A stretch of 58,931 nucleotides of DNA from a virus, in IMG/VR virus record IMGVR_UViG_3300042466_000346, positions 1 to 58,931 of that record; one strand, given 5' to 3'. Within the stretch, counting starts at the first letter, position 1; the number at the start of each line of letters is the position of its first letter. The notes below the pieces were generated by a model. It saw nothing but the letters and a program-made list of their open reading frames with translations. It was not told the origin of the DNA and did no database searches. Made by a program: the position numbers and the translations under genes. Shown in pieces: positions 14,470 to 32,750 of the stretch.

Positions 14470-15302
14470 AGTACGAAAATATAAACTTCATATCTTCTGA
14501 GCCAATTGTGGCGGAAGTTAAACAAGAACTTAAGTCTTACTTCGAGGCAGGTGCTATTAGTGAAGTTTTGATTCCTACTTTCATTGACCAGTCCTTGCGT
14601 AAGCTTAAGGTAATGGTTCTTCAACCTGAAGAGACTGTAGCTCACTTTGTAAACTATAAGTCAGAGCTTCCTTGTGATTTTGCACTTCTAGATAGAGCTG
14701 CTTTGTATGATTCTCAGATAGAGTTTAGTTCTGGTATCACTACTATGAATGGGTACTTCTACATGTCTTCAGACTGTTCCTTCAGTGGAGAGTGTTGCAA
14801 TGATAAAACAGAGTACTTCGAACAAATCTTTGTATCTAATCCAGGCTTTAAGATTAGCATGAAGATGCCTAGGCCTATCCGTGTTTACCATGGATCTAAG
14901 GCATTATGTACAGAACAGTGTGCTAACTTGTATGCACCCGGCCCAGACATTATCCAGATTAATAACAACAGGACTATGTCTGCTTCTTTTGAGGAGGGCT
15001 GTATTTATGTAAGATACTTTGCTAGACCTACGGATGAATTTGGTATTCCTAAGATTCCTGAAATACTAGAAGTCGAAGAGTACATTAAGGCTTATCTTAA
15101 GTTTAAATTCTTTGAGATGCTTTGGCATTCTCAGTTAGATGAATCTGCTGCTCAGATTGAGCGTAAGTTTCAATACTACAAACAAGACCAGCTTGCTAAA
15201 CTACAGGCAGCATTTGGGTACTTGTTGACTAAGACTAAACAACAGAGTGCTGATAGCGTTGTGAAGGCACGTAATAAGTTTGTTAAATACCATATCATTT
15301 AA
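14466..15302 (+). CDS. Probable tail ring / adaptor protein
   Basis: 278 residues, start overlapping the previous stop by ATGA. It has an N-terminal helix pair (VAEVKQELKSYFEAG, SLRKLKVMV), a beta core with Cys clusters (CSFSGECC near residue 105; CTEQC near residue 150), and a C-terminal helical hairpin (AAQIERKFQYYKQDQLAKLQ) seen in crAss-like ring proteins. The gene ends at TAATG, sharing one base with the start of the muzzle gene, which suggests the two products assemble next to each other at the end of the tail. Good family-level match, exact layer unknown. Confidence 0.65.
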   Translation: MKYENINFISSEPIVAEVKQELKSYFEAGAISEVLIPTFIDQSLRKLKVMVLQPEETVAHFVNYKSELPCDFALLDRAALYDSQIEFSSGITTMNGYFYMSSDCSFSGECCNDKTEYFEQIFVSNPGFKISMKMPRPIRVYHGSKALCTEQCANLYAPGPDIIQINNNRTMSASFEEGCIYVRYFARPTDEFGIPKIPEILEVEEYIKAYLKFKFFEMLWHSQLDESAAQIERKFQYYKQDQLAKLQAAFGYLLTKTKQQSADSVVKARNKFVKYHII

Positions 15303-18300
15303 TGGAAAATAAAGTAAATCAGAATATCATTGGTCTTAACCTGGACTCTATTAACTGGCAAGTTAAGGAGAACCAGATTACATGGGCTTTAAATGCTAAT
15401 GTGCAAGCTCATGACGGTGACTCTGTTACTTACACAAATGAACCCAGCAACACAGAATGCTTTAGATTTGATCAAGGCACTTTGTCAGGATTTATTGTAG
15501 TAGGATTTACTAATATTATTGAGCAGTCTAAGGTTATTCTTTTCCTTACTCACCCAGACGGACGTTCTCGCATAGGTCAGATTACTGCTCTAGGCGATTC
15601 TTGTTTAGGTGTAGAAGTTACTGAAGAAGATTGTGGATGTAAGGCAGGTACCATCGTCACTACAGCTACTGTTGTAACAGACCTACCTGCAGATGAAGTT
15701 ACTTTACAGTGTCCAGATGGCTACTTCTATGATGCAGTTACTAACCTCTGTAAGAAGGTTCAATACGTTCCTATCGACGAAAGCTCTCAAACACTACCTG
15801 TAATTGCTACTTGCGTTAACGGAAGTGGTTGTGGTGTATTCTCTACCCACGGTTCTTTCTTACCTAACGTCTATACTAGCGCATACTCTACGTTAACACC
15901 TTCAGACTACTACACAATCAAAACTGAGTTACCTACACCTACTGGTACCAACTTTTGGAATCCTAATGGTATAGGTGTATTTAACGTAGCTACTTACTTA
16001 AAGAGTATTGCAGTACAAGCGGATTTAAATCCAGGAGGCGGACTATGTCGGGAGTGTCACACAATTAGTACTGTAACTCCTGAGAATCCTTCGGGGTATA
16101 TTGGTTTTGCTGAGACTGTTTGTATTGATCAAACCAAGGAGTATTATATGTCTTTGGCTGGAGACGAAGCTCTTCGTGTCTATATTGACAACGTTTTAAT
16201 TTTTGACTTTGATCCTGTAACCCCTTCTAAGATTCTAGGAGGAGCAGCATCTAATCTTTGGTCAAGACTTCACTTCTTTCCAATTACTTTAACTGCTGGT
16301 AGACACGTATTCAGGTTTGAGTACAAAAACACTGCAGGTATTGGTATGTTTGCTTATGAGGTATATGATATCTCATTGGCTCAGTTGCTTGACCCAAATC
16401 TTACTCAAGCAATCTTAACTGCATCTATTGCTCGTAGTAATGGTGAGCAGATTAGTTCTTTGCCTAAGAGAGGTTCTTACTTCACAGAGACGGAGAATGC
16501 TTGTCCAGACGGGTACATACTAACTGTAGACGAAAACTGCGTAGCATCTTGTAGTACTGTAATTACCGCAGAGAGAGAAGAGGTTACTGTTTCTTCTACT
16601 TGTTGTAAGTATGAGGATATAATCATTGACAATTGTTTAGACGAATGTGAACAGTCTTGTTACGAGTATGTAGTAGGATTAACAATAGACTTAAGTATTG
16701 AAAATACCGCTCTTGAAAAAGATTTTACTTACGAAGACTGTGCAGGCAATATTGTTCGTGACTTTATTCTAGGTGAACCTAAACGATTTACAGCTAGAAA
16801 AGGTACACTACTTTTAGAAGGGCCGTACATAGAAATACTTCAAGAAGTTCAAGTAGAGGATACTACCCCTGGAGTATTTTCTAAAGGCAACTGCTGTTTA
16901 AATTTTGATCCTGCCTTCCCAGTGAATGCGGAGTATCGTATAGATGACTGTGAAACCAAAGTTTATTATATTAGTAGGAATAATCCACCTCGCTATTTTT
17001 CTGATTTGTATCCTTATGGAAAAGACGCCTGTGGGAAGAATCGTACGTGCATTAGAGAAAGCTGTGAGGATTCTAAGCTATTTCCTAATTTCTGCATCCC
17101 AGAAGTTCACGCTACCTCTGTAGATAGTGGAGGTATGCTGGCAGCAGGTGCCTACTCGTTTGCTATAGCATACTGTGATGAGAACGGAGATGAGTTTGTA
17201 GATTATACAGACTACACCAACCCTATTCCAATTTTTGAAAGGACTATTACTGAACAGACAGAGTATGTAACCTCTAAGTCTATCACAGTTAATGTTAAAC
17301 ATAAGACTCGCATATTTGAGTACTTCAGTTTAGTAGTAGCAGAAACAGTAAACACAACTAACACATATCACCTAGTAGGTGTATACCGGGTAAATCAGGT
17401 CACAGACCAAGACACTGTAATCTATACAGGTGATTATAAAACTACTTTCTCTACAGTTGCTCCTGTAGTTAGAAGCCCTAGATACGATACTGCTAACATC
17501 ATTGAGAAGCAGAATGATATCTTGATGCTTGCTGACTTAGAAGAAGCTCCTAGATACAACTTCCAGCGTTTTGCTAGTAGATTGAAACTACTTTGGGAAA
17601 CTGTGAATATGCCGGCTGATGGACAGTTTGATTACTCATCCCCTGAAGTTGCTTACTTCTTTAGAACCTACCAGAGGGATGAGGTTTATCCTTTCGGTAT
17701 TAAATTCCGAATGAGTAATGGTAAGTACACTGATGTATTCCATATTCCTGGAAGAACTACGTTTACTGTTTTACCTCAGAATATAAATTTTGGAGATACT
17801 ACCTTACTAGATGGATCAAGTAACTTAGATGTATTTGTAGCGCAGACCGATTGTACTATCCCTGATCAACTGCCAGTTTGGAAAACATACAATACGGCTT
17901 CTCCTGGAACTAGTGTTGACTATGATGAGGACTTAGCATCGGATATTGAGAAACAATACAACTGTGCTATCACTAATGGTCTTCAAGGTGAGTTTGCTTA
18001 TTGGGAATCTACTGAGTTGTATCCTTGTTATGATGAGATATGGGAACAGTCTACTGACCCTAATGCTCCTTACTACAACCCAGAAGCATTAGCAGGCAAA
18101 CCTATTCGTCACCACAAGTTTCCCGACTCAGCTATTACCCACATTCATGACCATGACATTGCTTCTGGATCTACAGCGGATTCAGGAATTGGTGTAGAGA
18201 GTCCAAGTATATTGCATCCTATTGGAGTTCGTCTAGATGAAGCATCTTTGCTTAGTCTATTAAACCAAAAAAATCCAGACGGAACCTACGCTTACACTGT

Positions 18301-21300
18301 ATACGATCCTATCAAACGCAAGGAGATACCCATCAAAGATGTTATCTGCGGATATGAACTTGTACGAGGTAACCGTGTAGGTAATAAGTCTGTAATTGCT
18401 AAAGGATTACTTTATGATGTAGGAGAGTACTTTGATACTACTAATGATAAGAAGTATTACTACTCTAACTATCCCTACAATGACTTACGTGTAGATCCTT
18501 ACTTGATGAATGCTTCTCGTTGGTATGATGAGTCTAGAGAAATATTCCTTACCGACTCAGCTTTTATTGACGGTATCGGACGTGTAGGTGGATTCAGAAC
18601 TTACGACTTTAATGGAGGTAACAACAGATTTACTTTCTACTCCCCTGACACAAGTTTCCAGTTTCCTAAAATTGGTACAGAATTAAAACTTGAGACTGTA
18701 GAGTTTGGTAGAGTACTCGGACACTTTGTTCCCGTAGCTGAACATCCTCAGTATAGATTTTTGCAGGAAGGTGCGTTCAGAGATGCGGGACGTTTGTCTG
18801 CTATCTTATCAGCAAACGTTTCAGGATCTACTGAAGTGAGTGCAACAGTAACTGGTGGATTTGCTAATGGTTCTCGTTTTGATGTTCGCTACGATAAGCT
18901 TCTTGCTAACGAGCAGGTAATGCTTGATTTAATAGGTAAACTGATTCCGTTTGTAAATTTTGCTTATCAGTATAATTCTATTGCAAACTATAATCAGTAC
19001 GTACCTATCAATCCGTTGGCTACAGTTCCACACTTCGGTAGTAGTCGTAGATTTATTGAATTAGGTTATTACGCTAATGAAAGAATCGTTCAGGTATTTG
19101 ACGATGCTCCATTACATAATCGTTTAAGAGAAACTTCTGTTTACCTCAAGGTAAAAGACTTTATTAAAAACATTGAGTCTCAATTACTAGATAACTCTAG
19201 ATACGTTACATCTGCTACAACCTTAGTAGATGAAACAGGCGCTACTGTTAGTGACGAGGGTCATACATTAAACGCAACTACTGAACATCAAAGACGTACT
19301 ACCCGTGCTTACTATGGTTCTGTTAAACGTCAGTTTCCAAATCAGTATGGTCAGGTAGAAAACATTAAGTATGTTTCTACTGGGTATGCAGTTGATTTGT
19401 ACAGAACTGCTGGAGGTGGTGTGAGTCTTGAGTATAAGTATTATCCTGCTTTTGGTGGAGACACATTCATTACTCCTTTCTCCTTTAAGCGTAAACATTC
19501 TTTCTTTACAAGAAACTTAGTTAATCTTCCTGCCAAGGTAGATGAAGTACCATTTGATTACTGGTTATTCCCTAACATGGCATACCCAACCTACTACATT
19601 GGTACCGCTAGTAATGTTAATGCTATCAGTGGTTCAGAGATTGCAGTTGCTTTTGCTTTCGTAGCTGCAGGAGTTGGTGCTGGTATTGCTGGTATATCAT
19701 TAGGCGGAGCATTGGCTGTTGTGGGCGTGTATGCGCTTAACTTAGGAATCATGGAAGGCTTGAATGAACTCTGGAGTAAGTTTACTAAAAAGACTACTCT
19801 CGATGGTTCTAGTGACCACAGATACTATCAGGATGGTCACTTCTATACAGCCTCTTACGGGCTACCTATATTCTTTGTAGAGTCTGATGTTAATACTCAT
19901 TTTCGTCACGGTAGGGATACTGATAAAGAAAACTTCTACCCCAACGTAGGTGGGGGTATTCCTGATGATTGGTTGCAAGAAGCTACGGTACCTATCAAGT
20001 ACGATAACTTCTACCACTATAACGCTACTTACTCTGCCCAGAACTTAAGTCCTAACATGCCTTACAGGTTGAAGTATCCTTCCTTGGAGTGTTTAGTGAA
20101 TCACCAGAATCGTGTGATCTACTCAGACCAAGCAAGTAAATCTAATCTGTTGACAGACAAGTGGCTTAACTTCCGTCCAGGGAACTTCTATGATTTCCCT
20201 AAGCAAGGTGGTCGTTTAATTGATTTGAATGCCGGTGAAAGCGAAAGAGTATATGCTCGTTTTGAAAACACTACCAAAGTATACAATGCACGTATTGTAC
20301 TTACCTCTACTTCTCCTTATCAGTTGGAGATAGGTAACGCAGATATGTTCAAGCAAAAGCCTGTTGACTTGGCCGCTACTGACTTAGGTTATATCGGAAG
20401 CCAACACAAAGCTTATGTACGTTGTGAGTATGGAACCTTCTGGGTAGATGCTAAACGTGGACACGTGTATCAAATCACAGGAGACGGATTCAACGAAATC
20501 AAATCAGAGTTGAACTACAACTGGTTCAAAGAAAATCTACCATTCCAGATAATCAAAGATTTGCCTGAGGCAGATGTTGACGTGCCTTCTTTAGGTATTG
20601 GTATTACTATGGGATGGGATGAAAGATTCGAGCGTGTATTTATTACCAAGTTAGACTACAGAGTTAGACCTGAGTTTAGGAAGGGAAATACATCAGAGAT
20701 ACTTTACATTAACGATAGACTAGATCCTAACTACAAATACTATGTATTGAAGACCGGAACCACTGTCACTAGAGTTTCTTTATTCAACGGTACTTACTTT
20801 GAGAATAAGTCTTGGACAGTTGCTTATGCACCCAAGTTGAAAAACTTTATCTCCTTCTATTCTTTCTTGCCAAATTTCTATGTAGCTCAGTTGGGTCACT
20901 TCCAAACAATCACAACCACCGCTGCAGGAAGTTCACTTTGGAACCACAACCTACACCCGTACTTGTATCAGACTTACTATGGTAAGTTATATCCATACAT
21001 CATCGAGTATGCGGTTAACAGTCTTCCAATTAACTCTATCTTGACTTCAGTTTCTTTGATTGCAGAGATCCAAGAATACTACAGCAAGACCGAGTACTAC
21101 TCTCTGGGTACTGCGAACAATAAAAATATTGCCAACTTTAACAAGGCTATCATCTACAACAGAGAACAGTCTTCAGGTATTATTAACTTGATACCGGAAG
21201 TGTTTGGTAATACTAGACAGAAGCTTCTGTATCCTAGAATGGGAACTACTGGCATCGAGACTTTGTTATCTCGTAGGGAGAACAAGTATACCTTTAATGG

Positions 21301-21547
21301 TTTCTGGAACATTGCTGCTCAAGCAAATGGTCAGCCTCTGTGGACAACCAAGTGGACAGACTTATTAGCAAGTTACCCAATAGATAAGTTGCCTAATATG
21401 AAGGCGATAAGAAACGTAGGTTTGTCTTATCAAAAGAATAAGATTAAGTCTGACTTCACCAGAGTACGATTAATTCAAGACAAGTACAATAGATATAAAT
21501 TTGTGAACAGTTTGCAAATTAATCAAATCAACCAAACTGCCTTATAA
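15302..21547 (+). CDS. Muzzle / tail-end stabilisation protein
   Basis: 2,081 residues, largest tail gene. The N-terminus (GLNLDSINWQVKENQITWALNANVQ) is typical of crAss-like muzzle proteins, which form the gate at the distal end of the tail. Residues about 100-420 are Cys-rich and contain an inserted domain (about 245-365) that resembles PA14-type carbohydrate-binding modules (SLAGDEALRVYIDN, then PITLTAGRHVFRFEY). Later parts are long beta-rich stretches rich in Tyr, Asn and Pro. Residues about 1447-1485 are a Gly/Ala-rich hydrophobic stretch long enough to cross a membrane. The gene follows the ring protein by a TAATG overlap. The muzzle call rests on order, size and N-terminus; the PA14 call is by eye. 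Confidence 0.82.
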   Translation: MENKVNQNIIGLNLDSINWQVKENQITWALNANVQAHDGDSVTYTNEPSNTECFRFDQGTLSGFIVVGFTNIIEQSKVILFLTHPDGRSRIGQITALGDSCLGVEVTEEDCGCKAGTIVTTATVVTDLPADEVTLQCPDGYFYDAVTNLCKKVQYVPIDESSQTLPVIATCVNGSGCGVFSTHGSFLPNVYTSAYSTLTPSDYYTIKTELPTPTGTNFWNPNGIGVFNVATYLKSIAVQADLNPGGGLCRECHTISTVTPENPSGYIGFAETVCIDQTKEYYMSLAGDEALRVYIDNVLIFDFDPVTPSKILGGAASNLWSRLHFFPITLTAGRHVFRFEYKNTAGIGMFAYEVYDISLAQLLDPNLTQAILTASIARSNGEQISSLPKRGSYFTETENACPDGYILTVDENCVASCSTVITAEREEVTVSSTCCKYEDIIIDNCLDECEQSCYEYVVGLTIDLSIENTALEKDFTYEDCAGNIVRDFILGEPKRFTARKGTLLLEGPYIEILQEVQVEDTTPGVFSKGNCCLNFDPAFPVNAEYRIDDCETKVYYISRNNPPRYFSDLYPYGKDACGKNRTCIRESCEDSKLFPNFCIPEVHATSVDSGGMLAAGAYSFAIAYCDENGDEFVDYTDYTNPIPIFERTITEQTEYVTSKSITVNVKHKTRIFEYFSLVVAETVNTTNTYHLVGVYRVNQVTDQDTVIYTGDYKTTFSTVAPVVRSPRYDTANIIEKQNDILMLADLEEAPRYNFQRFASRLKLLWETVNMPADGQFDYSSPEVAYFFRTYQRDEVYPFGIKFRMSNGKYTDVFHIPGRTTFTVLPQNINFGDTTLLDGSSNLDVFVAQTDCTIPDQLPVWKTYNTASPGTSVDYDEDLASDIEKQYNCAITNGLQGEFAYWESTELYPCYDEIWEQSTDPNAPYYNPEALAGKPIRHHKFPDSAITHIHDHDIASGSTADSGIGVESPSILHPIGVRLDEASLLSLLNQKNPDGTYAYTVYDPIKRKEIPIKDVICGYELVRGNRVGNKSVIAKGLLYDVGEYFDTTNDKKYYYSNYPYNDLRVDPYLMNASRWYDESREIFLTDSAFIDGIGRVGGFRTYDFNGGNNRFTFYSPDTSFQFPKIGTELKLETVEFGRVLGHFVPVAEHPQYRFLQEGAFRDAGRLSAILSANVSGSTEVSATVTGGFANGSRFDVRYDKLLANEQVMLDLIGKLIPFVNFAYQYNSIANYNQYVPINPLATVPHFGSSRRFIELGYYANERIVQVFDDAPLHNRLRETSVYLKVKDFIKNIESQLLDNSRYVTSATTLVDETGATVSDEGHTLNATTEHQRRTTRAYYGSVKRQFPNQYGQVENIKYVSTGYAVDLYRTAGGGVSLEYKYYPAFGGDTFITPFSFKRKHSFFTRNLVNLPAKVDEVPFDYWLFPNMAYPTYYIGTASNVNAISGSEIAVAFAFVAAGVGAGIAGISLGGALAVVGVYALNLGIMEGLNELWSKFTKKTTLDGSSDHRYYQDGHFYTASYGLPIFFVESDVNTHFRHGRDTDKENFYPNVGGGIPDDWLQEATVPIKYDNFYHYNATYSAQNLSPNMPYRLKYPSLECLVNHQNRVIYSDQASKSNLLTDKWLNFRPGNFYDFPKQGGRLIDLNAGESERVYARFENTTKVYNARIVLTSTSPYQLEIGNADMFKQKPVDLAATDLGYIGSQHKAYVRCEYGTFWVDAKRGHVYQITGDGFNEIKSELNYNWFKENLPFQIIKDLPEADVDVPSLGIGITMGWDERFERVFITKLDYRVRPEFRKGNTSEILYINDRLDPNYKYYVLKTGTTVTRVSLFNGTYFENKSWTVAYAPKLKNFISFYSFLPNFYVAQLGHFQTITTTAAGSSLWNHNLHPYLYQTYYGKLYPYIIEYAVNSLPINSILTSVSLIAEIQEYYSKTEYYSLGTANNKNIANFNKAIIYNREQSSGIINLIPEVFGNTRQKLLYPRMGTTGIETLLSRRENKYTFNGFWNIAAQANGQPLWTTKWTDLLASYPIDKLPNMKAIRNVGLSYQKNKIKSDFTRVRLIQDKYNRYKFVNSLQINQINQTAL

Positions 21548-21549
21548 TC

Positions 21550-21933
21550 ATGAAAGACAAAGAAATTTTTACAACTGTTAAACCCGAGGTAATCTTCGGA
21601 CAGTTGTTTCAATCTAGGGATACAATGCACATTGTTCACCTTCAGACACTTAATTATTCCGAGCACAAAGCATTGGACTCCTACTACAGCGGACTCCTAG
21701 AACTAATTGATGATTTAATCGAAGCCTACTTTGGAACGTTAGGTGGGAAACGAATTAACTTTAAGATTCCTGCCTCTGAGTATGTAAACGCTAATCAGCA
21801 CTTAACTCAGATGCTTGACTACCTTAAAAAACACCGTGGTGTTTTTGGAGCAGACAACACGCACATTCAGAATATCTTGGATGAAATCTTAGCTCTAATC
21901 TCCAGTACTATCTACCAATTAACTCTTACATAA
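21550..21933 (+). CDS. Small helical protein, Dps/ferritin-like layout (DUF5856-type)
   Basis: 127 residues, almost entirely helical. The segment MHIVHLQTLNYSEHKALDSYY followed by LIDDLIEAYFG places His, His and Glu residues with spacing that recalls a four-helix bundle of the Dps/ferritin type, and similar small proteins are widespread in crAss-like phages. A metal-binding or ferroxidase role is not shown, since a full set of ligands is not evident. The gene sits 2 bases after the muzzle gene and 1 base before the next cargo-like gene. The DUF name is from memory and should be treated as tentative. Confidence 0.55.
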   Translation: MKDKEIFTTVKPEVIFGQLFQSRDTMHIVHLQTLNYSEHKALDSYYSGLLELIDDLIEAYFGTLGGKRINFKIPASEYVNANQHLTQMLDYLKKHRGVFGADNTHIQNILDEILALISSTIYQLTLT

Positions 21934-21934
21934 A

Positions 21935-23758
21935 ATGAATCGCTTAAAGAAATCTTACTCAACCTGCTTAGAATGTGGTGGCAAAACAAGAATGAAGTCC
22001 GGAGGTAACTGGATTCAATCTGCCATTAAAAAGCCAGGTTCATTTACAGCTCAAGCTAAAGGTGCAGGTATGAGTGTTCCTGCGTTCCGTGATAAAGTAC
22101 TTGCTAACAAAGGAGACTTCTCCTCTACTACTGTAAAGAGAGCTAACCTCGCTAATACTCTTTCTAAGATGCGTAAGGGAGAAATGGGAATGATGACTAG
22201 GTCATCTCCTGTATCTACTAAGACTACCAAGAACTTTGCAATAAAAAGCAATAAAGGCCAGGCAAAGGTAGCACCTAAGATGTCTACTATAAGATCAAAG
22301 GATAGATACGGTGAAGACGGCATGGAGATGGAAATGGGAAGCACCAACCCTACTCAAATTAATTTGATGGACTCTAATACTATGCGTAGGAAAGAGATGC
22401 TAGGTGAGAGAGAGGCACAGTTGCAGGAGAAGAAGAACGGAGTTCCTGAGAATCAGATGGCACCTTTGTCTATGATGCGTGGTGGCAGACTCTATGCTCA
22501 GTTAGGTATGTTGAATGGCAAAGCTATTCAAGGACCTAAGCCAGCACCAGTTGCAGCCGCTCCTGCTAAACCAGCAGTTAAAGCTATGTCTAATGAAGAG
22601 GGCATGGACGAGGTTCCAAGAATCGAAGCAATCGATCCAAAGTTAACTCAAGCTAAAGCTATGTTGAAAGAAGACAACAAAGCTCTTGAAATGGCTAAGG
22701 TGAGAGATTACCAGATGATGCTTAATAAAAAGTACGGTGCAGGATTAGCTACTGACGGTGCATGGGGACCAAAGACACAGGCTGCTTATGAAAAGTACAT
22801 GCTGAAGCCTGCTGCTACTGTTGCTAAGTCTAGTGGTGATATGAGACCATCAAGAGCTGATCTGCCAGGTAACTTCAAGATGAATTTTAACACGCCTGTT
22901 GCTAAAGGTACTATGGGTCCTTCTAGAGCTGACATGCCTGGTAATTTCAGAATGAACTTTAATACTCCTGCAGCCCCAACTGCTACTGCTTCATCTTCTT
23001 ATAAAGGCACTAGTCAACCTTTGTGGCAAACTGCTAAAGAAAGACAAAGTTTTATTCCTGGTAAGGCTGGAGATATGGTAGTTAATCCTAACTATTCTTT
23101 TCTAAATAAACCTGCCAATAAAACTAATGCAACTAAAGCTGGAACTAAATCTACAACTGGTGGCAAAGCTCCTATACAAATCCCAGGCAGTCCTGAAAAA
23201 AAAAAAACAGCCGTGGTAGATAATCGTCAGTTACCTCTGACAGGAGTATTGGTTGATAGGGGTACAAATGAAACTTTTGTTTTTGGTAAGGATAACAACT
23301 TTCAATTCCCTGTCTTGACTGGTCAAAACCGCAACATGTATGCAGATGCTAATACCTTCACTGTTGATCAATTAGAAAAAGATAAATCAGGTAGAGTTAC
23401 TCCTCGAGGTTATTATATATTTGACCAAAACAATGTAACTGCTTCTGATAAAAAGTCTTACAATAATAATATCCGACACCTAGAGCCTATTACTGCTTTT
23501 GGTACTCCGGAACCTCAAGCTACTAATATTGCTGTACATCAGACTTATGATCCTGCTCGTAGAGCACCGTTCTATGATAAGTCGGGGGATCAAAGAGGCA
23601 AGTCTTATGGTTGCGTTAATGGACGTTGTGGTGATGTAGCTACAATGTTTAATCAAGTAGCAGATAGAGATACTGTGATGGTTATCGATTCTCGTAGACC
23701 TGAAGACCAACAGTTCCTTAAACAAGCACAAAAAAGAGTTGCAAAAAAGCAAAAATAA
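21935..23758 (+). CDS. Cargo-like protein with peptidoglycan-binding and L,D-transpeptidase-like domains
   Basis: 607 residues, in order: a CLECGGK Cys pair near the N-terminus; a basic, Met-rich, low-complexity part (about 20-240) with GG motifs; a PG_binding_1-type module at 253-291 (YQMMLNKKYGAGLATDGAWG, then PKTQAAYEKY); two 24-residue repeats from residue 303; a Pro/Lys linker; and from about 425 a domain resembling YkuD L,D-transpeptidases. Its signature is H535 (IAVHQTYD) and SYGCVNGRCGD with C560 as the presumed nucleophile. The usual [ST]HGCxN motif has Tyr in place of the second His. In bacteria such enzymes form peptidoglycan cross-links or attach proteins to peptidoglycan. No signal peptide, so it would act after ejection from the virion or after lysis. 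A 12-A run encodes the linker just before the enzyme domain. Confidence 0.68.
   Translation: MNRLKKSYSTCLECGGKTRMKSGGNWIQSAIKKPGSFTAQAKGAGMSVPAFRDKVLANKGDFSSTTVKRANLANTLSKMRKGEMGMMTRSSPVSTKTTKNFAIKSNKGQAKVAPKMSTIRSKDRYGEDGMEMEMGSTNPTQINLMDSNTMRRKEMLGEREAQLQEKKNGVPENQMAPLSMMRGGRLYAQLGMLNGKAIQGPKPAPVAAAPAKPAVKAMSNEEGMDEVPRIEAIDPKLTQAKAMLKEDNKALEMAKVRDYQMMLNKKYGAGLATDGAWGPKTQAAYEKYMLKPAATVAKSSGDMRPSRADLPGNFKMNFNTPVAKGTMGPSRADMPGNFRMNFNTPAAPTATASSSYKGTSQPLWQTAKERQSFIPGKAGDMVVNPNYSFLNKPANKTNATKAGTKSTTGGKAPIQIPGSPEKKKTAVVDNRQLPLTGVLVDRGTNETFVFGKDNNFQFPVLTGQNRNMYADANTFTVDQLEKDKSGRVTPRGYYIFDQNNVTASDKKSYNNNIRHLEPITAFGTPEPQATNIAVHQTYDPARRAPFYDKSGDQRGKSYGCVNGRCGDVATMFNQVADRDTVMVIDSRRPEDQQFLKQAQKRVAKKQK
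22841..22984 (+). repeat. Two tandem 72-base repeats (24 residues each)
   Basis: Units start at 22841 and 22913. Each encodes M-x-P-S-R-A-D-[LM]-P-G-N-F-[KR]-M-N-F-N-T-P. The two DNA copies differ at many third positions while the protein is nearly the same, so the duplication is not recent and the peptide appears to be conserved by selection. It lies between the wall-binding module and the enzyme domain. Confidence 0.85.
23196..23207 (+). other. A12 homopolymer at a domain junction (possible slippage site)
   Basis: Twelve consecutive A encode the Lys run after E421 of the 607-residue protein. Gain of one A leads to TAA, and loss of one A leads to TAG, each within six codons downstream. Slippage in either direction would therefore yield a protein of about 430 residues that keeps the wall-binding module and lacks the transpeptidase-like domain. 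Confidence 0.5.
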
Positions 23759-23761
23759 TTT

Positions 23762-25981
23762 ATGTCAGTAAATAGTTTTCTTGAGAAGTTAAAACAGCGA
23801 GTATCTCCTACACCTGTAGATGAGACAGGGATGTGGTATCAAAATGATGATGTCATTGTTCCGTCTAATAAGATTACTATGAAAGGTCCTAATGGTGAGG
23901 ACGATTACTTTGAAAAGCCTATACTCGGTGTGGGTATGCAGTCAGGTAAGCAAGTAATGATGCAACCTGGTGAGGAGTATGAGTTTCCTGAAGATAAGGA
24001 AGTCTACGAAACTCAAATGCAGTTAGGTGGAAGAATTGATAACGTCTCCCCTAGAGGTGATGTAGATTTTTCTGTAGGCAACAAGAATAAACTTTCAGGT
24101 CAAGTAGTGGGGTCAATCAATGCTCCTTCATTACAGATGAATTCCTTGACTCCGAGATTAGCTTACTCTAATAAAGGATTTAACGCTAACGTATCTCCAG
24201 GTGGTTTTGGTGCCGGCTATGAGGGTGAGAAGGGTTATATAGACTACAATCAATCTACTGCAGGAAAGGATACTTACAGAACAGCTAGTGCTGGTTACAA
24301 CACAGAGAGAGTTAACTTAAATGCCAATGCTACTATGCGTAACAATATGCTAGAGAATGCAGGCATTGAGGGTTCATACCAAGTCACTCCTAACTTATCT
24401 TTATCTGGTAACTACAACATCAACAAAGGTGAGCAAGGAACTGATAAGAATTACTTTGCAGGATTTAGATACACTAAGTCTTTTGAGGATGGCGGTGAGG
24501 TTGAGGATGAAAATGACGATGACAAAGAGATGGTAGATGGGATTGCTAGCATCTTAACAAGAGTTAAAGATAAGAACAACAGAAAGCAAATTGCGAATGA
24601 AATGATACTTGATTTTAAAAAAGAAGGTGTTAAGTATAACCTCAAAGATTTTAAAAAATCTGCTAAAATAATGCAGATGGGGGGAATGTCTATTCCTGGA
24701 GTTAACGGTACTGTAGTTGCTTCTAGTAATACTTCTAGACTAAAGAAAGCATACATGCAACAAGCGGGCTATGTTAAGTACGTACCGCCTAGTCAAAGAC
24801 CTTTAACGTTTCGTAGTGATAACCCAAGTACTTCAGATAATACAAGGGTTAATACGGTTATGTCCAATAAACCTATTACACCTGTAGCAATCCCTAGTAA
24901 GCCTGTAACTAGGTCAAAGTCTAATTCTAGTCTTAATAATAGACTAGCAGCTATGTCTGAAGTAGAGGATAGGATTTATGCAGATAATACTGCTGTGTAT
25001 TCTATTCCCCCTATGAACCTAACAAAGAAGGCAAACTATGATGTTGAGGAAGACTACAGACAATCTGTAGAGTCTGGATTAGCAGGAAGACTATTGAACG
25101 TGCTTCCTACCCCATTGGCTTCCTACATTAGAGGATTAGCAGATGAGGACAATACAACTGCTGATTTTACGGAGAGTCAGAAACAAGCTGCAGCTTACGC
25201 AATAGCTAAAGCAGAAGCAAGAAAATCAAAGGCAGGTGATGAGGGCTACACAGGAAGTTTTGACTATGCAGATTATCCTGCAGGGTATAGAGACGAGCAA
25301 GGGGTTGCACATAACCCTGCACTATCTAACTTATTTAACTTACCTTCTTTGGATGGAAAAACCGGTAAACGTTTAGATAACGTAACTAAGTATTGGGGAT
25401 CAGCAATGATGCAGCCTACACTAGGTAAGGCCAATTTTAAGAAGTATAATGATGAAGAGTACCTAATACATGATAGGTATAACTTTGATTCCTATAATCC
25501 AAATAGTAAGTCTATAGTTGATAGGGCAGAGAAATTTGCAAATGAGTGGGGCGTAGAAACTGAAACTAATTTAAGAGTTCCTGTGAAGTACGTAGAGGAT
25601 GCTAGAAAACAAATAGCTGAGGAAGACGCTCAACCAAAGGTAAAGCAACCTGAGGAACAAGCAAAACCTACAGTTAAACCTACTGTAGAGAAAGCACCTG
25701 CAAACGTATCAAAACCCGTTGTAGAGAAGTCTAAACTTCAACAGAGTTATGAGCAAGCTAAGCCTTCTTTTAAAAAGACTTTAACCATTACTACGACTCA
25801 ACCAAAACAAACAACTCCTGCTAAACAAGCACCTTCACGTAATCAAATAAATAGTGAAGAGAGTAAAGTGCAGAACTACCAAAAGATGTTGAATAGTAAA
25901 TACAATGCAGGTCTAGAAGCTGATGGAGCTTGGGGTCCTAAAACTCAAGCAGCTTACGAAAAATATATACTCAAGAAATGA
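23762..25981 (+). CDS. Cargo-like protein with C-terminal peptidoglycan-binding module
   Basis: 739 residues. The N-terminal 90 residues include DETGMWYQNDDVIVPSNKIT and an acidic loop. Residues 95-240 show alternating, Asn/Gly-rich beta-strand patterns (SPGGFGAGYEGEKGYIDYNQ, YQVTPNLSLSGNYNINKG) that look like outer-membrane-barrel strands. Then come a strongly acidic segment, several GG motifs, a helical middle, a Pro/Lys/Gln-rich linker (about 620-695) and a C-terminal PG_binding_1-type module (700-739, NYQKMLNSKYNAGLEADGAW). The last module is nearly the same as that of the preceding gene. The stop overlaps the next start (ATGA). No catalytic motif is seen, so a wall-binding structural or ejected protein is inferred. 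Confidence 0.55.
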   Translation: MSVNSFLEKLKQRVSPTPVDETGMWYQNDDVIVPSNKITMKGPNGEDDYFEKPILGVGMQSGKQVMMQPGEEYEFPEDKEVYETQMQLGGRIDNVSPRGDVDFSVGNKNKLSGQVVGSINAPSLQMNSLTPRLAYSNKGFNANVSPGGFGAGYEGEKGYIDYNQSTAGKDTYRTASAGYNTERVNLNANATMRNNMLENAGIEGSYQVTPNLSLSGNYNINKGEQGTDKNYFAGFRYTKSFEDGGEVEDENDDDKEMVDGIASILTRVKDKNNRKQIANEMILDFKKEGVKYNLKDFKKSAKIMQMGGMSIPGVNGTVVASSNTSRLKKAYMQQAGYVKYVPPSQRPLTFRSDNPSTSDNTRVNTVMSNKPITPVAIPSKPVTRSKSNSSLNNRLAAMSEVEDRIYADNTAVYSIPPMNLTKKANYDVEEDYRQSVESGLAGRLLNVLPTPLASYIRGLADEDNTTADFTESQKQAAAYAIAKAEARKSKAGDEGYTGSFDYADYPAGYRDEQGVAHNPALSNLFNLPSLDGKTGKRLDNVTKYWGSAMMQPTLGKANFKKYNDEEYLIHDRYNFDSYNPNSKSIVDRAEKFANEWGVETETNLRVPVKYVEDARKQIAEEDAQPKVKQPEEQAKPTVKPTVEKAPANVSKPVVEKSKLQQSYEQAKPSFKKTLTITTTQPKQTTPAKQAPSRNQINSEESKVQNYQKMLNSKYNAGLEADGAWGPKTQAAYEKYILKK

Positions 25982-26436
25982 AACAGATGATCAAACGTAA
26001 AGATGGTTCTTATTCCCAGAGAGGTCTTTGGGATAACATCCGTGCTAATAAAGGTAGTGGCAAAAAGCCTACACCTGAAATGCTTAAGCAAGAGAAGAAG
26101 ATTAAATCTATGGGCAGCGGAGGAAGTCTTTACCAGTCTTACATGGCTAAGGGAGGAACTATCCGTCATACTACTAAAGGTCCCGGTGCTAATTACCGCC
26201 CTACTAAATCAGGTGCAGGTATGACAGCTAAGGGTGTGGCAGCTTATAGAAGAGCTAACCCCGGATCTAAATTACAAACCGCAGTTACTGGCAAGGTAAA
26301 GCCTGGCAGTAAAGCAGCTGGTCGTAGAAAATCTTATTGCGCTCGTTCACTAGGACAGTTAAAAAGATCTTCTCAAGCTACTAAAAATGATCCCAACTCA
26401 AGAATACGTCAAGCACGTAGACGTTGGAAATGCTAA
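25978..26436 (+). CDS. Basic protein with KPGSK...RRKSYCAR / RRWKC motif (DUF6321-like)
   Basis: 152 residues, very rich in Lys, Arg, Gly and Ser. The C-terminal half carries KVKPGSKAAGRRKSYCARSL and ends SRIRQARRRWKC, a signature I know from small proteins in many unrelated phages (tentatively DUF6321). Two double-glycine motifs (SGGSLYQSY and AKGGTIRHT) precede it. The strong positive charge suggests nucleic acid binding, either in the packed head or after ejection. ATGA overlap with the gene before it, and 23 bases to the next small gene. The biochemical role is not established. Confidence 0.6.
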   Translation: MKQMIKRKDGSYSQRGLWDNIRANKGSGKKPTPEMLKQEKKIKSMGSGGSLYQSYMAKGGTIRHTTKGPGANYRPTKSGAGMTAKGVAAYRRANPGSKLQTAVTGKVKPGSKAAGRRKSYCARSLGQLKRSSQATKNDPNSRIRQARRRWKC

Positions 26437-26459: not shown

Positions 26460-26615
26460 ATGGCAACCGCAGCAAAATCAAAATCAAGCTCCATCTCTCT
26501 TAAGTTTAAAGTTAAACCTAAGGTTCGTAGAAAGGGAGTCGTAGCAAAGACAAGGGCTTCTAAACTCAAGTCGAGTAAAAATTATCTAAAGAAAAAAGTT
26601 GGGCAAGGAAAGTAA
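26460..26615 (+). CDS. Very small Lys/Arg-rich protein (51 residues)
   Basis: ATG at 26460, TAA at 26613-26615. The product begins MATAAKSKSSSISLKFKVKP and ends LKKKVGQGK; about one residue in three is Lys or Arg and there are no Asp or Glu residues. The gene fills the gap between the preceding basic protein and the GIY-YIG gene, sharing the last base of its stop with the next ATG (TAATG). Composition is protamine- or histone-tail-like, which would suit DNA neutralisation in the capsid. No domain is recognised. Confidence 0.7.
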   Translation: MATAAKSKSSSISLKFKVKPKVRRKGVVAKTRASKLKSSKNYLKKKVGQGK

Positions 26616-27334
26616 TGATTGTATACAAAGTTACTAACTCAGTAAATGGCAAGGTATATATTGGGTATACCACTAAAACACTTGATCAAAGGATTAAGGC
26701 TCATTTAAGGAAAGCAAACTGTCTTACTCAGAAACACCATACTCAAGCTTTTAAGTTGGCTTTAAGGAAGTATGGTAAGGAGTGTTTTCTTTGGGAAGAG
26801 TTAGTAACTTGTAGTACAAAAGAAGAAGCTTGTGAAAAAGAAAAACACTTCATAGCAGAGTATAACTGCGTTGTTCCTTTAGGTTATAATATGACTTTGG
26901 GAGGAGAAGGGGGAATATTTTCAGAAGATGTCAAAATTAAGATCTCTAATTCTGTAAAAGATTATCATAAAAACAATCCTGAAATCTGGCTTAATAGTAC
27001 CCTAGCTAATGCTAGTACAGAACAGAGGAGTGAGTGGGGCAAAAAAGCAGCAAATACTAAAATTCAAAATGGGTTTAAGTACAAAACAGGATTCACAAGA
27101 CCACAGGAGTCTAGAGAAAAGATGAGTAAAACTAGACGAAAGAAATACTCCTGTACTTGGTACAATTTTAAAACAAAAACATTAGTGGAAGCATCTTCAA
27201 CAGATATGAGTGAATTTACAGGATTATCCGTAGGCACATTCAATCATTTAAAACATGAAAGACTTCGTATTACTAAGTGTGGTTGGGTTTATGTTCCTGC
27301 TGAGTCTAATTACATTGCACTAAATAGGGGGTAA
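26615..27334 (+). CDS. GIY-YIG homing endonuclease (free-standing)
   Basis: 239 residues. The GIY-YIG nuclease domain occupies residues 1-95: IVYKVTNSVNGKVYIGYT gives the two strand motifs, R27 in DQRIKAHLR is the expected catalytic Arg, and a conserved Glu lies in the KEKHFIAEYN helix. The domain ends with GYNMTLGGEGG. NUMOD3-like DNA-binding repeats follow (SEDVKIKISNSVKDYH; ESREKMSKTRRKK), then a C-terminal helix-turn-helix-like part. Such genes spread by cutting a cognate site in related phages. It sits at the end of the P2 unit, its stop codon lying inside the terminator hairpin. It does not interrupt a recognisable gene, so it is intergenic rather than intron-borne. Confidence 0.88.
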   Translation: MIVYKVTNSVNGKVYIGYTTKTLDQRIKAHLRKANCLTQKHHTQAFKLALRKYGKECFLWEELVTCSTKEEACEKEKHFIAEYNCVVPLGYNMTLGGEGGIFSEDVKIKISNSVKDYHKNNPEIWLNSTLANASTEQRSEWGKKAANTKIQNGFKYKTGFTRPQESREKMSKTRRKKYSCTWYNFKTKTLVEASSTDMSEFTGLSVGTFNHLKHERLRITKCGWVYVPAESNYIALNRG

Positions 27335-27439: not shown

Positions 27440-30400
27440 ATGCTTAGACATTCTCTCTATAAGAAATTTGGTAAGAAATTCTATAAGGAAGGAGGCAGCG
27501 ATGAGAATCCTTTTGGGATTCCTTCAATCAAACCGCCTGCACCTTTAGGGAATTACAGTACTAAAGAGCAACCTGAAGGCACCATTACATCTGGTGATGC
27601 TTCATATGCACCGGGAACATTCAATACTGACAAGGCTAGCAGTATGTTTACTCCCGATGCTTCACCATTTTTCAGTAACATTAATCCTGAAAATATCTAC
27701 GATGTAGACCAGAGCACTCCAGAGATGGAGCAAGGTCCCTTGACTAAGTCAGAGACTGAAAAGCGTGGTCTTATGTCGGATTATAAAATCCCCGAACCTT
27801 CTTTCAAGGATAAGTTAAAGAGTAACATAAAAAGCATTGGCAATGACATTAAAGAGAATTGGCAGGACTATGCTACTGTTGGATTAACAGGAGCACTAGG
27901 TGCTGCTAATTATATGGATGCACAGCGTAAAGAAACTGAACTAAATCAATCAATTCAATCTAGACAATCAAAACCTCTCTACGACTATAACTACATGTAT
28001 GGTCGTACTACGAGTGGAGGTACCGAGTACCAACCTATTGTTATGGCACAAAAAGGAGCAAAAATTACAAACCGTTACAATACTCCTGAAGGAGTAAATA
28101 ATAACGTAGAAATTGAAGACGGAGAGTTTTTGATTCTACCTGACGGTACTAGCGAAGTGGCTAAAGGACCTTCGCACTCACAGAGTTACAAAGCAGATGG
28201 CCAGTCTATGAGTGGCATCAATACCATCTTACCGAATAACACAAGAGTATTCTCTAATCATATGAAACCTTCTGACGGGGCTAAACTTAATCCCGAAGAA
28301 CAGTTTGCTAAGATAGGTGCATACTTACAAGCTGGTGGTGACTTTAGTCAACTAGACATGACTACTATGTTCCGTGCTAAAAAAGGTAAAGATAGTAACA
28401 AGACCTTTGCTGAGATTGCTAAGCGTTATGATAATACTGAGTATGACGAAGTTTTGAAGAATCCTTTTGCTAAGGAGGTAGACAAACAGACTGCTCGTAT
28501 TATGAAGGAGCGTAATGATAAAGTACTTGACCAATTGTTCAGAGATCAGCAGTTTCTTAACGGCAACTCTAATGGAGAACAGAAGCAAATGGCTAAAGGC
28601 GGTATTAATAATCCTGGCTTTGAAGCACTCCCTGGTTATGTTCAAGCAAAGATTACTGCTAACATGGCAGAAGGTGGCGATGTTGGTAGTGCACCTGTCA
28701 ATACATTTATGTCTCCAGGTGTAGGTAATGATCCTAAATTTGAACAATACTATAATCAACAACGTCAAAGTTTCACTCAGGCAGGTGTTAAAGAAGCACC
28801 CTCTCGTAATGATATCTACTCTTATTACCAATCTGCTAATCCTCAGTCAGCAGTAGATCAAACAGGACGTATGTTGTTTAGTAACCCTAAAGGAACTATT
28901 TCTTCAGGCACTACCTTTAGTCAAGCTGTAGATCCTAACACAGGTATGGCATTAAACCAAGGTACTAACTTAGAAAAATCTGCTTTTGATCAACAAGCAA
29001 AAAGATTTGCTTATGGTGGTAAACTATACATGCAAGATGGAGCTAAGAAATATAAACTTCCTGAAGGAACTGTTCTTAAGAAAGAAGGCGACAAGACAAT
29101 TAAGCCTGGTGATTATGTTCAACTAGCAGACGGTACAGTAAAGAAGTTGACTAAGATAGATACCAAGCGTGTACGTGAAGCTTCTAAATCTTCTGTAGCT
29201 TCTAACTACGATGAGGGTAAGACCTTTATTAAGTCTTGGGCAAGTCAATCCCCTGAGAACCAACAAAAACTAGAACTAGCTAATGCTGCATTCCAGCGTG
29301 GTATTAACGAAGGAAGTATCAAGGTAATCAAGGAAGGACCTAAGAAAGGTCAGTACGAGATTACAGGTAGCTTTAAACCTGCCAACATGAAAGAACGTTT
29401 GGCTATGTCTGACGTAATCAACAAGTCGGGTAAAGGTTTTGGTACGGATCAGTTTCAGATTGGATTACAGACAGGAACTGAAGGATACTCTCAAAGAGAT
29501 CCTAAGACTGGTACCATTAGAGGTACTGGTTCGTTTGTAGCTGGTTTTAGTCCTGCAGAATACGAACAGCGTTTTACTTACGCAAGAGCCAAGGCAGAAG
29601 GTATGTCAGAGGATGAAGCTATTGAGTTGGCAGAGTCTCAAGACCCTAAGGTTCGTGCAGAAAACCGTAAGACTTTCTTGAAGGATATCGGAATGAATAG
29701 TGAAGGAGTACCTGATGAAGCTTTGCTATCTGATGACTTCTACAAGAATAGGTACTCTGATATAACCAAGAACATTGAAAAGAGTTTTGGAGAAGGCGAC
29801 TTCCGTCCTTCTATGGGTAATGACTTGATGTCTGGTTGGGAGCATTACGATGCTATCAACTATCAAGGTAATCCAATGTACGAGGATGTACCTGAAGAAC
29901 CTGAAAATCCAGGAGGTATTCCTGACCCTAACTTCCCAGAAAGAGGTAAGTATACTAGAATGCCTTATGACACCATGCAGGCTATTCCCGGAGCTTATGG
30001 ATTAGCCCAAGCACAAGATATATTCCCTTATGCAATTCCTGAGGTTCAGTCTCCTTATATAAAGCCACAGACTTTAAACATTCAAAGTGAGTTGCAAGAC
30101 ATCGACAACATGCAGGCTTCTGCTTTACGTGCAGGTGCTGATCCAAACATGACCTATGCAATGTCCTTGGATGCTAAGAACAAAGCATTCCAAACCAAGC
30201 AGAACTATGATGCTGAAGGTCGTTGGAAAGCAGATGCTACTAACTTTGATGCTGAGTTGAAGACTAATGCTATGAACGCTGAACTCTTTAACAAGACCTA
30301 CAATGATATGTATGCTACTGCTAAGTCTAATCAATCTGAAGCTAAGTTAGCAGCAGTTACTGGTTTGGTAGGTAGTCGTGCTCAATACAATGCAGACGAA

Positions 30401-30847
30401 AACATGAAGGAGTTCTACCATAACAACTTCATGCCTTCTTACAATTGGGACCCTAAGACAAAGACTTGGTCTGTTGTTAATCCTGGTGATATAGTAGACT
30501 ACGCAAACAAAAAGCAAAGTACAGGTACTACAGGTACTACTGGAAAAACAACCACTACTGGAACCACAGGGACTACCAGCACTACTGCCAGCACTACTAC
30601 TACCGGTTCAGCGTCTGCTCAACCTACTACAGCTAAAGGCACACCTATGGTTAGAGGTATTGCAGAACCTTCTGCACCCGGTACGTTCCCCTTTATGTCT
30701 ACCCCTTCATTTGACGAGGTTGATGGGATGGCTACTGATCCAACACAGAATTTAGGTACTAAGTTCCAAAAGAAAAACGGAGGTCTTCAACATGCCTACT
30801 TAAAAGCAGGCGGAAAGATTTACCATTTCACATACCCTAAAAGTTAA
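27440..30847 (+). CDS. Large cargo / internal virion protein
   Basis: 1,135 residues, first gene of the P3 unit. The N-terminus is basic (LYKKFGKKFYKEGG) and Pro-rich. A segment at about 195-260 (IEDGEFLILPDGTSEVAKGPSH) resembles regulatory beta-domains seen in large phage virion proteins. Six GG motifs are spread along the chain, including GGKLYMQDG and AGGKIYHFTYPKS at the very end. Residues about 535-580 hold a KLPEGTVLKKEGDKTIKPGD motif. The region at 840-1000 is helical. A Thr/Gly low-complexity linker (about 1028-1056) precedes the end. No enzyme motif is recognised. Its place before the next cargo-type gene and the RNA polymerase supports packaging inside the virion. Confidence 0.55.
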   Translation: MLRHSLYKKFGKKFYKEGGSDENPFGIPSIKPPAPLGNYSTKEQPEGTITSGDASYAPGTFNTDKASSMFTPDASPFFSNINPENIYDVDQSTPEMEQGPLTKSETEKRGLMSDYKIPEPSFKDKLKSNIKSIGNDIKENWQDYATVGLTGALGAANYMDAQRKETELNQSIQSRQSKPLYDYNYMYGRTTSGGTEYQPIVMAQKGAKITNRYNTPEGVNNNVEIEDGEFLILPDGTSEVAKGPSHSQSYKADGQSMSGINTILPNNTRVFSNHMKPSDGAKLNPEEQFAKIGAYLQAGGDFSQLDMTTMFRAKKGKDSNKTFAEIAKRYDNTEYDEVLKNPFAKEVDKQTARIMKERNDKVLDQLFRDQQFLNGNSNGEQKQMAKGGINNPGFEALPGYVQAKITANMAEGGDVGSAPVNTFMSPGVGNDPKFEQYYNQQRQSFTQAGVKEAPSRNDIYSYYQSANPQSAVDQTGRMLFSNPKGTISSGTTFSQAVDPNTGMALNQGTNLEKSAFDQQAKRFAYGGKLYMQDGAKKYKLPEGTVLKKEGDKTIKPGDYVQLADGTVKKLTKIDTKRVREASKSSVASNYDEGKTFIKSWASQSPENQQKLELANAAFQRGINEGSIKVIKEGPKKGQYEITGSFKPANMKERLAMSDVINKSGKGFGTDQFQIGLQTGTEGYSQRDPKTGTIRGTGSFVAGFSPAEYEQRFTYARAKAEGMSEDEAIELAESQDPKVRAENRKTFLKDIGMNSEGVPDEALLSDDFYKNRYSDITKNIEKSFGEGDFRPSMGNDLMSGWEHYDAINYQGNPMYEDVPEEPENPGGIPDPNFPERGKYTRMPYDTMQAIPGAYGLAQAQDIFPYAIPEVQSPYIKPQTLNIQSELQDIDNMQASALRAGADPNMTYAMSLDAKNKAFQTKQNYDAEGRWKADATNFDAELKTNAMNAELFNKTYNDMYATAKSNQSEAKLAAVTGLVGSRAQYNADENMKEFYHNNFMPSYNWDPKTKTWSVVNPGDIVDYANKKQSTGTTGTTGKTTTTGTTGTTSTTASTTTTGSASAQPTTAKGTPMVRGIAEPSAPGTFPFMSTPSFDEVDGMATDPTQNLGTKFQKKNGGLQHAYLKAGGKIYHFTYPKS
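30519..30609 (+). repeat. Thr/Gly-coding low-complexity repeat
   Basis: Irregular repeats of ACAGGTACTACTG-like units encode a run of T, G, S and A residues near the C-terminus of the 1,135-residue protein. It looks like a flexible linker that separates the last 75 residues. Confidence 0.75.
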
Positions 30848-30854
30848 CTAACTC

Positions 30855-32750
30855 ATGATTTCGCATAATTCCAAAACCTTCAAGTACCCAGACTATATCT
30901 CTCCTCTACCATCTGATGAGTACATCAAGTATGCAGAGAAGAAACAGTCAATGTATGATGAAGGCTTAGCCCAAGTTAAACAGACTGTAGATAACTATGC
31001 AAGTCTAAGACAGAATATCTTAACTGATGTAGAGAAAGAGTACTACGACAAAGCAATGACCAACCTTGTACAAGGTATCAATAAAAATGCTGGTGTAGAC
31101 TTCTCATTCAAAGGAAACGTAAATGCTGTTCTTGGCATGGGTAAGACACTCGAAAGAGATAGTAATATCCTAACTGCCATAGGTAACGGTAAAGAAGTTC
31201 AGCGTAGACAAGAAGCCTTAGCTAAAGTAGATGGTTCTAAACGATCTGCTGCTAATGATCACCTCTACATGAAGGACGTTCAAGAATACTTGAAGTCAAA
31301 CAAGCTAGGTCAGAAACTTTCATACGGTAAAACCTATGAAGAGTACTATGACATCAGTAAGGATTGGAAAGACTTCTGGGGTACCATCAAAGGTTCTAAC
31401 CAAACAGAAGAGATAAACATGCAGTCTAAGTTTGGACCTGCTTACATGGAAAAGGTAACTAAGGAAGGATTTACAAAGTCAGAGATTGCTCAAAAGTTTG
31501 AAGCTTATCTTGCTAACAATCCTAAAGCACTTCGTCAATTACAGATTGACGTAGGGTATAACCTAGACAATCTTGGTAAGGAGAATGCTTACACAGGTTA
31601 CGTACAGAACATGCGTCAGACAGCTGATGCAGCTTCATCTACAGTTAACAATTTGGATAGAGCTATTGGTGAGTTGGAACAATCGTATACAAAGACCAAG
31701 TCACCTATCATCAAAGAACAAATAGACCAGTACAAGTCTATGCGTGACTATCAGAATCAGGTAAGGGTTATGGCTATTCAGAAATCAGAAACTCCTTTTG
31801 AAGAGTTTGATGTTAATGATTACGCAGGTATCTATAAGTCTGAGTTTATCAGCAACATGTCTAACATGTATGCAGGTCAGAAAGTATCTAGAGACTTAAT
31901 TAAAAATGAGTACTGGGTACAACAGAAAGAGGATAACCGTATCTTGATGCGCCACAATCTTTCTATGCAGAGAGATAAGGCTAAGTTCCAGATGGAAGTA
32001 CAAGACCGTTACATCACTACCAAGAAAGACGTTGAGTTGGATGTTCCTCAGATGACCGCTGTTATTAAGAACGTGCCTCATGCTATTAATCAGCTTGACA
32101 AGGTAATTGGTAAGGCAGTAAATCAAATGGGTATTCCTAGAAACTCAGGAGCTGCTATGAATATTGAGAGAGCACAGAAGGCCCTTAGACAAGCACAAGG
32201 ATTAACTGGTGTTGCTCAGTTGAGTAAAATCAAGGAAGCATTTAATTACCTTGGTCCATCTAAAATAAATGCAAGACTAAAACAAGATATTGCTAGTATC
32301 TTTGGTCTTACTAACGTGAACACTGCGGCTGAGTATGATGACTTTGTAACACAGGTTAGTCAACAATTGAATACAACAGCTTCAATGCTTTCTGCTGAAG
32401 TAGCTAAAGGTAAGAGACCTGGCGTAGAAGGAGACATGGCTCGTTCAAGACAAATCAGTTACAACGATGCATTTGACTACTCTGTTGGTAGCATTGAGAA
32501 TATGAACTTCATTCTTAATGGGGATGCCTTGACAGGAAGACTTGCTATTGCTTCTCCTGAATCTACTGGCTACAGTAGTGAAGAAACTATACAAGTGCCT
32601 AAGTTAGATGCACAAGGAAGACCTGTCATGAGTGAGAAGGGAAAACCTATAATGGTAGACAAGGTAATCAAGACTACCACCAAGGCAAGCAACAAGGTAA
32701 ACAGACCTGAAAAATACAAAGTGAGTGCTAGTACAGAAAGTGAAGATTAA
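30855..32750 (+). CDS. Helical cargo / internal virion protein
   Basis: 631 residues, almost wholly alpha-helical and charged, no membrane segment. The N-terminus (FKYPDYISPLPSDEYIKYAEKKQSMYDEGLAQVKQTVDNY) is a conserved style of opening in crAss-like cargo proteins stored in the head and tail. Coiled-coil-like stretches lie at 250-310 and 345-400. The C-terminus becomes Lys/Pro-rich (KLDAQGRPVMSEKGKPIMVD). It lies 11 bases before the RNA polymerase gene and is presumably ejected with it. No catalytic motif. Confidence is good for the cargo class and low for any specific task. Confidence 0.6.
   Translation: MISHNSKTFKYPDYISPLPSDEYIKYAEKKQSMYDEGLAQVKQTVDNYASLRQNILTDVEKEYYDKAMTNLVQGINKNAGVDFSFKGNVNAVLGMGKTLERDSNILTAIGNGKEVQRRQEALAKVDGSKRSAANDHLYMKDVQEYLKSNKLGQKLSYGKTYEEYYDISKDWKDFWGTIKGSNQTEEINMQSKFGPAYMEKVTKEGFTKSEIAQKFEAYLANNPKALRQLQIDVGYNLDNLGKENAYTGYVQNMRQTADAASSTVNNLDRAIGELEQSYTKTKSPIIKEQIDQYKSMRDYQNQVRVMAIQKSETPFEEFDVNDYAGIYKSEFISNMSNMYAGQKVSRDLIKNEYWVQQKEDNRILMRHNLSMQRDKAKFQMEVQDRYITTKKDVELDVPQMTAVIKNVPHAINQLDKVIGKAVNQMGIPRNSGAAMNIERAQKALRQAQGLTGVAQLSKIKEAFNYLGPSKINARLKQDIASIFGLTNVNTAAEYDDFVTQVSQQLNTTASMLSAEVAKGKRPGVEGDMARSRQISYNDAFDYSVGSIENMNFILNGDALTGRLAIASPESTGYSSEETIQVPKLDAQGRPVMSEKGKPIMVDKVIKTTTKASNKVNRPEKYKVSASTESED

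Follow-up and report, generated by a model that had tools for sequence, protein, structure and literature searches.

By domain, the closest described relatives of the protein considered here, the product of gene T, are the YkuD-family L,D-transpeptidases (PF03734), especially the [ST]YGCIN subclass of Proteobacteria, with which T has in common the profile, the fold, the TPxG motif, the His and Cys residues and the GCxN motif. The motif of the family is given in a review as HG(S/T)-X10-(S/T)XGC, the second residue of the Cys motif being free (PMC12729407). Unlike these bacterial enzymes, T is phage-encoded, lacks a signal peptide, is fused to phage modules and possesses a second conserved cysteine, C565. 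In its cargo-region position, and in having a wall-active domain that comes and goes, T resembles the ejection proteins of podoviruses, such as T7 gp16 with its transglycosylase (PMC8954989); T is a predicted virion protein only, and its predicted chemistry is that of peptide bonds (YkuD) rather than glycan cleavage. Polyvalent proteins (PMC5512222) are likewise multidomain late phage proteins with peptidoglycan-active parts and are predicted to be injected. They are defined by several disparate enzymatic domains, whereas T contains one enzyme domain plus modules, and the text of the polyvalent protein survey mentions neither YkuD nor transpeptidase (PMC5512222). Among crassviruses, the cargo proteins C1 and C2 of phicrAss001 (gp45 and gp46) are encoded in the same region as T, and the N-terminal module of T is common to the C1-position protein of cr128_1; T and its neighbour X are, in contrast, extra genes between the muzzle and C1, absent there in phicrAss001. 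Peptidoglycan is not mentioned at all in the structure paper on phicrAss001 (PMC10172136).

The window analysed here, the whole 58,931-nucleotide stretch of IMG/VR virus record IMGVR_UViG_3300042466_000346, is by its gene content a fragment of a crassvirus related to the gut crAss phages. The portal and the major head protein were identified with PHROG profiles, the tail ring protein is present (Pfam CrAss_Ring_1), two giant genes occupy the RNA-polymerase (RNAP) position, and a holin gene is predicted at 57791-58210. Genes are ordered muzzle - DUF5856 - T - X - DUF6321 - C1 - C2 - RNAP, and the features relevant to gene T are as follows.

15302..21547, + strand: muzzle/tail protein homologue, 2081 amino acids, matching phage structural proteins including those of csAssE-Sib and phi4:1
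21550..21933, + strand: DUF5856 gene, 127 amino acids, conserved upstream boundary of the variable locus
21935..23758, + strand: gene T, modular cargo-region protein, 607 amino acids, with orthologs in the corresponding position of 41 neighbourhoods
21935..22219, + strand: conserved N-terminal module of T, amino acids 1-95, with phrog_20603 at amino acids 25-81
22688..22807, + strand: half-length PG_binding_1-like module of T, amino acids 252-291, recognised from a PHROG profile and from orthologs
23246..23683, + strand: predicted YkuD (L,D-transpeptidase-type) catalytic domain of T, amino acids 438-583, from Pfam and fold
23537..23539, + strand: H535, predicted catalytic His, invariant in orthologs
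23603..23614, + strand: S557-Y558-G559-C560, predicted nucleophile motif, invariant in orthologs
23762..25981, + strand: gene X, mosaic cargo-region protein, 739 amino acids, adjoining gene T
25978..26436, + strand: DUF6321 basic protein, 152 amino acids, conserved downstream boundary of the variable locus
27440-30847 and 30855-32750, + strand: C1- and C2-position cargo genes, so named because they precede the giant RNA polymerase genes

Gene T is located two genes behind the muzzle, 1-4 bp from the genes on either side, and thus within the muzzle-to-RNAP cargo region, the location expected of a cargo protein of the Crassvirales. Its neighbours were identified by crassvirus profiles and synteny, in agreement with the first-pass annotation, which had placed it between the muzzle and the cargo genes. 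A sequence match of the C1- and C2-position genes of the window to gp45 and gp46 was looked for and not found, and their assignment is one of synteny. A GIY-YIG-like endonuclease ORF, recognised by eye, occupies 26615-27334 between the DUF6321 gene and C1, and L098 and L099 have an ORF of equal length in the corresponding position.

The ORF of gene T is real, with an ATG start, and encodes the N-module (amino acids 1-95), a linker, the PG-binding-like half-module (252-291), a further linker, the YkuD domain (438-583) and a basic tail. The protein has no signal peptide and no membrane helix (highest 19-residue Kyte-Doolittle mean 0.51) and so needs another route to the periplasm. Near its start lies a CxxCGG motif (21965-21982), found in 31 of the 41 T orthologs, which might serve in metal binding or redox chemistry.

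Both a profile match above the cut-off and a predicted fold support the L,D-transpeptidase-like domain proposed earlier for this gene. PF03734 matches amino acids 438-583 over profile positions 4-146 of 146 (E 8.2e-7, 30.1 bits; curated cut-off 23.4 bits), and the Pfam scores for YkuD are 38.9 bits in ortholog L004 (78% identical) and 48.0 bits (E 2.5e-12) in ortholog L127 (63% identical). An AlphaFold model of the domain built with 60 aligned sequences reached a pLDDT of 85.6 and a pTM of 0.83; that alignment was assembled via motif searches, and homology is therefore already assumed in the model, though not in the Pfam scores. Foldseek returned 29 PDB matches at E<=1e-3, all of YkuD type and nearly all L,D-transpeptidases, as are the best matches (probabilities of 0.99-1.00 and TM-scores of 0.42-0.56 against YkuD structures). 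The comparison with YkuD structures that had been proposed as a check thus recovers the YkuD beta-sandwich, in a model that rests on the supplied alignment; with two sequences only, AlphaFold gave a pLDDT of 34.9 and no usable fold. The domain was detected by profile and fold searches alone, as phmmer and hmmsearch against PDB sequences found no YkuD. A tblastn search with the domain returned nothing in phage or plasmid records, a search of genome contigs gave no close cellular relative, and when viral contigs were scanned for the catalytic core, no phages beyond the three already known (the window, L004 and L127) came up. T ends in a real, apparently intact YkuD domain that is probably catalytic.

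The wall-binding module of T is weaker than first described. A short PG-binding-like module is present, but what had been called a PG_binding_1-type module is only half-length. Pfam does not list PG_binding_1 on the T protein of the window at E<=1, and the sole profile on the module there is a PHROG endolysin profile covering amino acids 218-292 (E 2.9e-4). T orthologs match PG_binding_1 over the first ~31 of 57 positions only, one of them passing the cut-off at 25.4 bits. The match being short of a full domain, the segment is referred to here as a PG-binding-like half-module. A second copy, 75% identical over 40 amino acids, ends gene X at 25856-25975.

The N-module suggests a link to virion cargo. 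It is found inside gp049 of cr128_1 (Steigviridae), with an hmmsearch E of 5.5e-13 among 1,524 sequences including shuffles. This protein is in the C1 position, its gene lying directly behind the muzzle, and over two long stretches it shares 45-49% identity with phicrAss001 gp45. Mass spectrometry and cryo-EM place gp45, the cargo protein C1, in the tail and capsid of phicrAss001 (PMC10172136). The N-module matches gp45 itself weakly, at amino acids 370-424 (13.5 bits), just ahead of the portal-bound domain (425-552), and has no direct match in the window's own C1. It also occurs as a stand-alone gene (P23p111; L128:5998-6177) near the holin and peptidoglycan hydrolase genes of Thermus phage P23-45 and, lying there beside lysis genes, is not exclusive to cargo. 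The N-module is a candidate packaging or docking module, and its presence in a C1-position protein makes it likely that T is packaged in the virion. That xxGG motifs might be sites of protease cleavage in the cargo proteins was also considered and dropped, since GG counts match chance.

Comparison with relatives reveals a point missed by the first-pass annotation, namely that YkuD forms just one of the variable ends at a locus that is both modular and hypervariable. A related major head protein was found on 48 contigs, and of 45 records searched, 40 preserve the first ~80-95 residues of T. Wherever the contigs are readable, 41 neighbourhoods show the gene order muzzle - DUF5856 - T - X - DUF6321 - C1 - C2, except that X is missing in one (L116) and small insertions occur in some. 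T ends after the N-module in 10 of these, carries a short extension in 7, the PG-binding-like half-module in 21, and both the half-module and YkuD in 3; the counts include near-identical contigs and are not independent events. Missing in 38 of the 41, YkuD is dispensable in general. Among the 45 records searched, two pass the YkuD profile cut-off, L003 (identical to the window) and L004, and L127 is a YkuD-bearing ortholog found separately from that search; a match in G031 (11.8 bits) is below the cut-off and was taken as chance. As these contigs compare, YkuD belongs to a set of interchangeable ends at a modular locus that swaps fast, much like the transglycosylase or lysozyme domains of T7-type ejection proteins, and gene X is a mosaic still more variable than T. 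The length of X ranges from 92 to 1054 amino acids across relatives, X genes share a median of 28% of their length (138 pairs with DUF5856 >=80% identical), and in some pairs with identical DUF5856 the common portion falls to ~20% for X and ~30% for T. Recurring segments of the mosaic X orthologs (L086-L124) include ITMKGP, EMVDGxAxIL and PGVNG, and between the window and L004 an internal segment of X has been exchanged. In one relative, gene X (L089:2315-3844) encodes a conventional wall enzyme with LysM (2.7e-11) and SLT transglycosylase (3.6e-15) domains. SLT was rejected as a general alternative wall enzyme, being present in only 1 of 46 records. Segments of other X genes resemble HExxH motifs, ADP-ribosyltransferase (ART)-like folds or beta-barrels in by-eye reading only; Pfam gives no support for HExxH/protease, ART-like or beta-barrel-like readings of X.

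H535, the motif S557-Y558-G559-C560 and the His-to-Ser spacing of 22 are all as originally described. The Tyr in place of the motif His and the long spacing had raised the possibility of a binding-only relic, and the modest Pfam score in the window might be added in its favour; both features, however, are common among bacterial YkuD proteins. Among 17 Pfam YkuD proteins, drawn almost entirely from one bacterial class, the second motif residue is His in only 6, and the spacing in these 17 is mostly 10 to 19, the few larger values reflecting a permissive automatic assignment of the His. When bacterial genomes were searched with a DNA pattern, R[IV][ST]YGCINV was identified in at least 75 proteins, whose upstream His precedes the Ser by 20-29 residues and mostly by 26; this set was selected for Tyr, and establishes that the combination is common without giving its frequency. 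When aligned, the phage domain and the bacterial [ST]YGCIN proteins have in common D, LxG, TPxG, H, YGC and N, and H535, S557 and C560 align with 57 viral and bacterial YkuD-type sequences. All three distinct orthologs retain H535 and C560 unchanged, and a dN/dS of 0.21-0.30 across these three shows the domain to be under purifying selection. A catalytically dead or binding-only YkuD domain is therefore very improbable. A second conserved cysteine, C565 (in NGRCGD, 23627-23629), lies five residues past the predicted nucleophile in all three orthologs and is absent from the bacterial relatives inspected; redox control is possible.

With no signal peptide, the YkuD domain would reach peptidoglycan only by ejection or at lysis, and gene position together with the sharing of the N-module favours ejection. 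The preferred reading, to which we give roughly an even chance, is that T is an internal crassvirus ejection protein. The conserved N-module would recruit it into the particle, the PG-binding-like half-module would hold it at the wall, and the C-terminal YkuD domain, as an intact Cys-His enzyme, would act where the phage enters, on the stem peptides of peptidoglycan, as cargo and DNA cross the envelope. YkuD chemistry could trim, exchange or form bonds of the stem peptides, and its most likely use would be local wall remodelling, in which such bonds are cleaved or exchanged so that the ejection channel passes or seats. We infer packaging, delivery and activity of T, as well as the direction of the reaction (cleavage or transpeptidation). 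Ejection proteins of other podoviruses carry wall-cutting domains swapped between proteins (PMC8954989), which fits the swapping at the T/X locus.

Other uses of the domain are also conceivable. Bacterial YkuD enzymes attach proteins to peptidoglycan (PMC12729407), and a true transpeptidase might link T, or the lysine-ended X, covalently to the wall and so anchor the channel or reseal the wall: T ends in K in two of the three orthologs and X of the window in KK. This is unlikely, as lysine-rich ends are found also on X genes of phages without YkuD and a transient channel requires no covalent anchor. We consider it distinctly unlikely that T acts outside the virion as a late wall enzyme for lysis or superinfection control, released once the holin opens the membrane. 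The predicted holin, the N-module near the lysis genes of P23-45 and a YkuD domain reported in a gut phage endolysin (PMC13284279) would agree with such a role, but gene T belongs to the run of genes from muzzle to cargo, distant from the holin, and its N-module is common to a C1-position protein. YkuD-type effectors occur in type VI secretion, and an effector role after injection, in which the domain would not aid entry but upset synthesis of the host wall or keep rivals out, would suit a locus that varies like an arms-race locus and the HExxH motifs and ART-like segments seen by eye in gene X of other phages; since no immunity gene was seen and the ART and protease readings are without Pfam support, only a slim chance is given to it. 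In a broader proposal, in our view quite unlikely, T/X would be a polymorphic ejected-effector locus whose shared N-module loads exchangeable envelope-active domains, here an L,D-transpeptidase linking cargo to the host wall, or re-cross-linking that wall, at entry. If so, the phage would build or anchor wall bonds rather than only cut them.

Under the preferred reading of T as an ejection protein, T is a concrete candidate for how crassviruses get protein and DNA across the wall of Bacteroidota. The swapping locus, in turn, is a natural set of modules possibly loaded into virions by a common N-terminal part, and may help in working out the packaging signal. Searches of an open-access library turned up no account of YkuD in the role of crassvirus cargo. 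What is new is the cargo-region setting of YkuD and the exchangeable-module locus around it, a variant of the known mosaic ejection and polyvalent proteins. YkuD in phage proteins as such is already known, from short viral YkuD genes, from BFVD folds and from a gut phage endolysin (PMC13284279). In BFVD, YkuD-like folds occur in phage proteins of 920-1232 amino acids. Short YkuD ORFs (~135-150 amino acids), several with signal-peptide-like starts, are found on viral contigs L255, L256, L262, L265 and L266.
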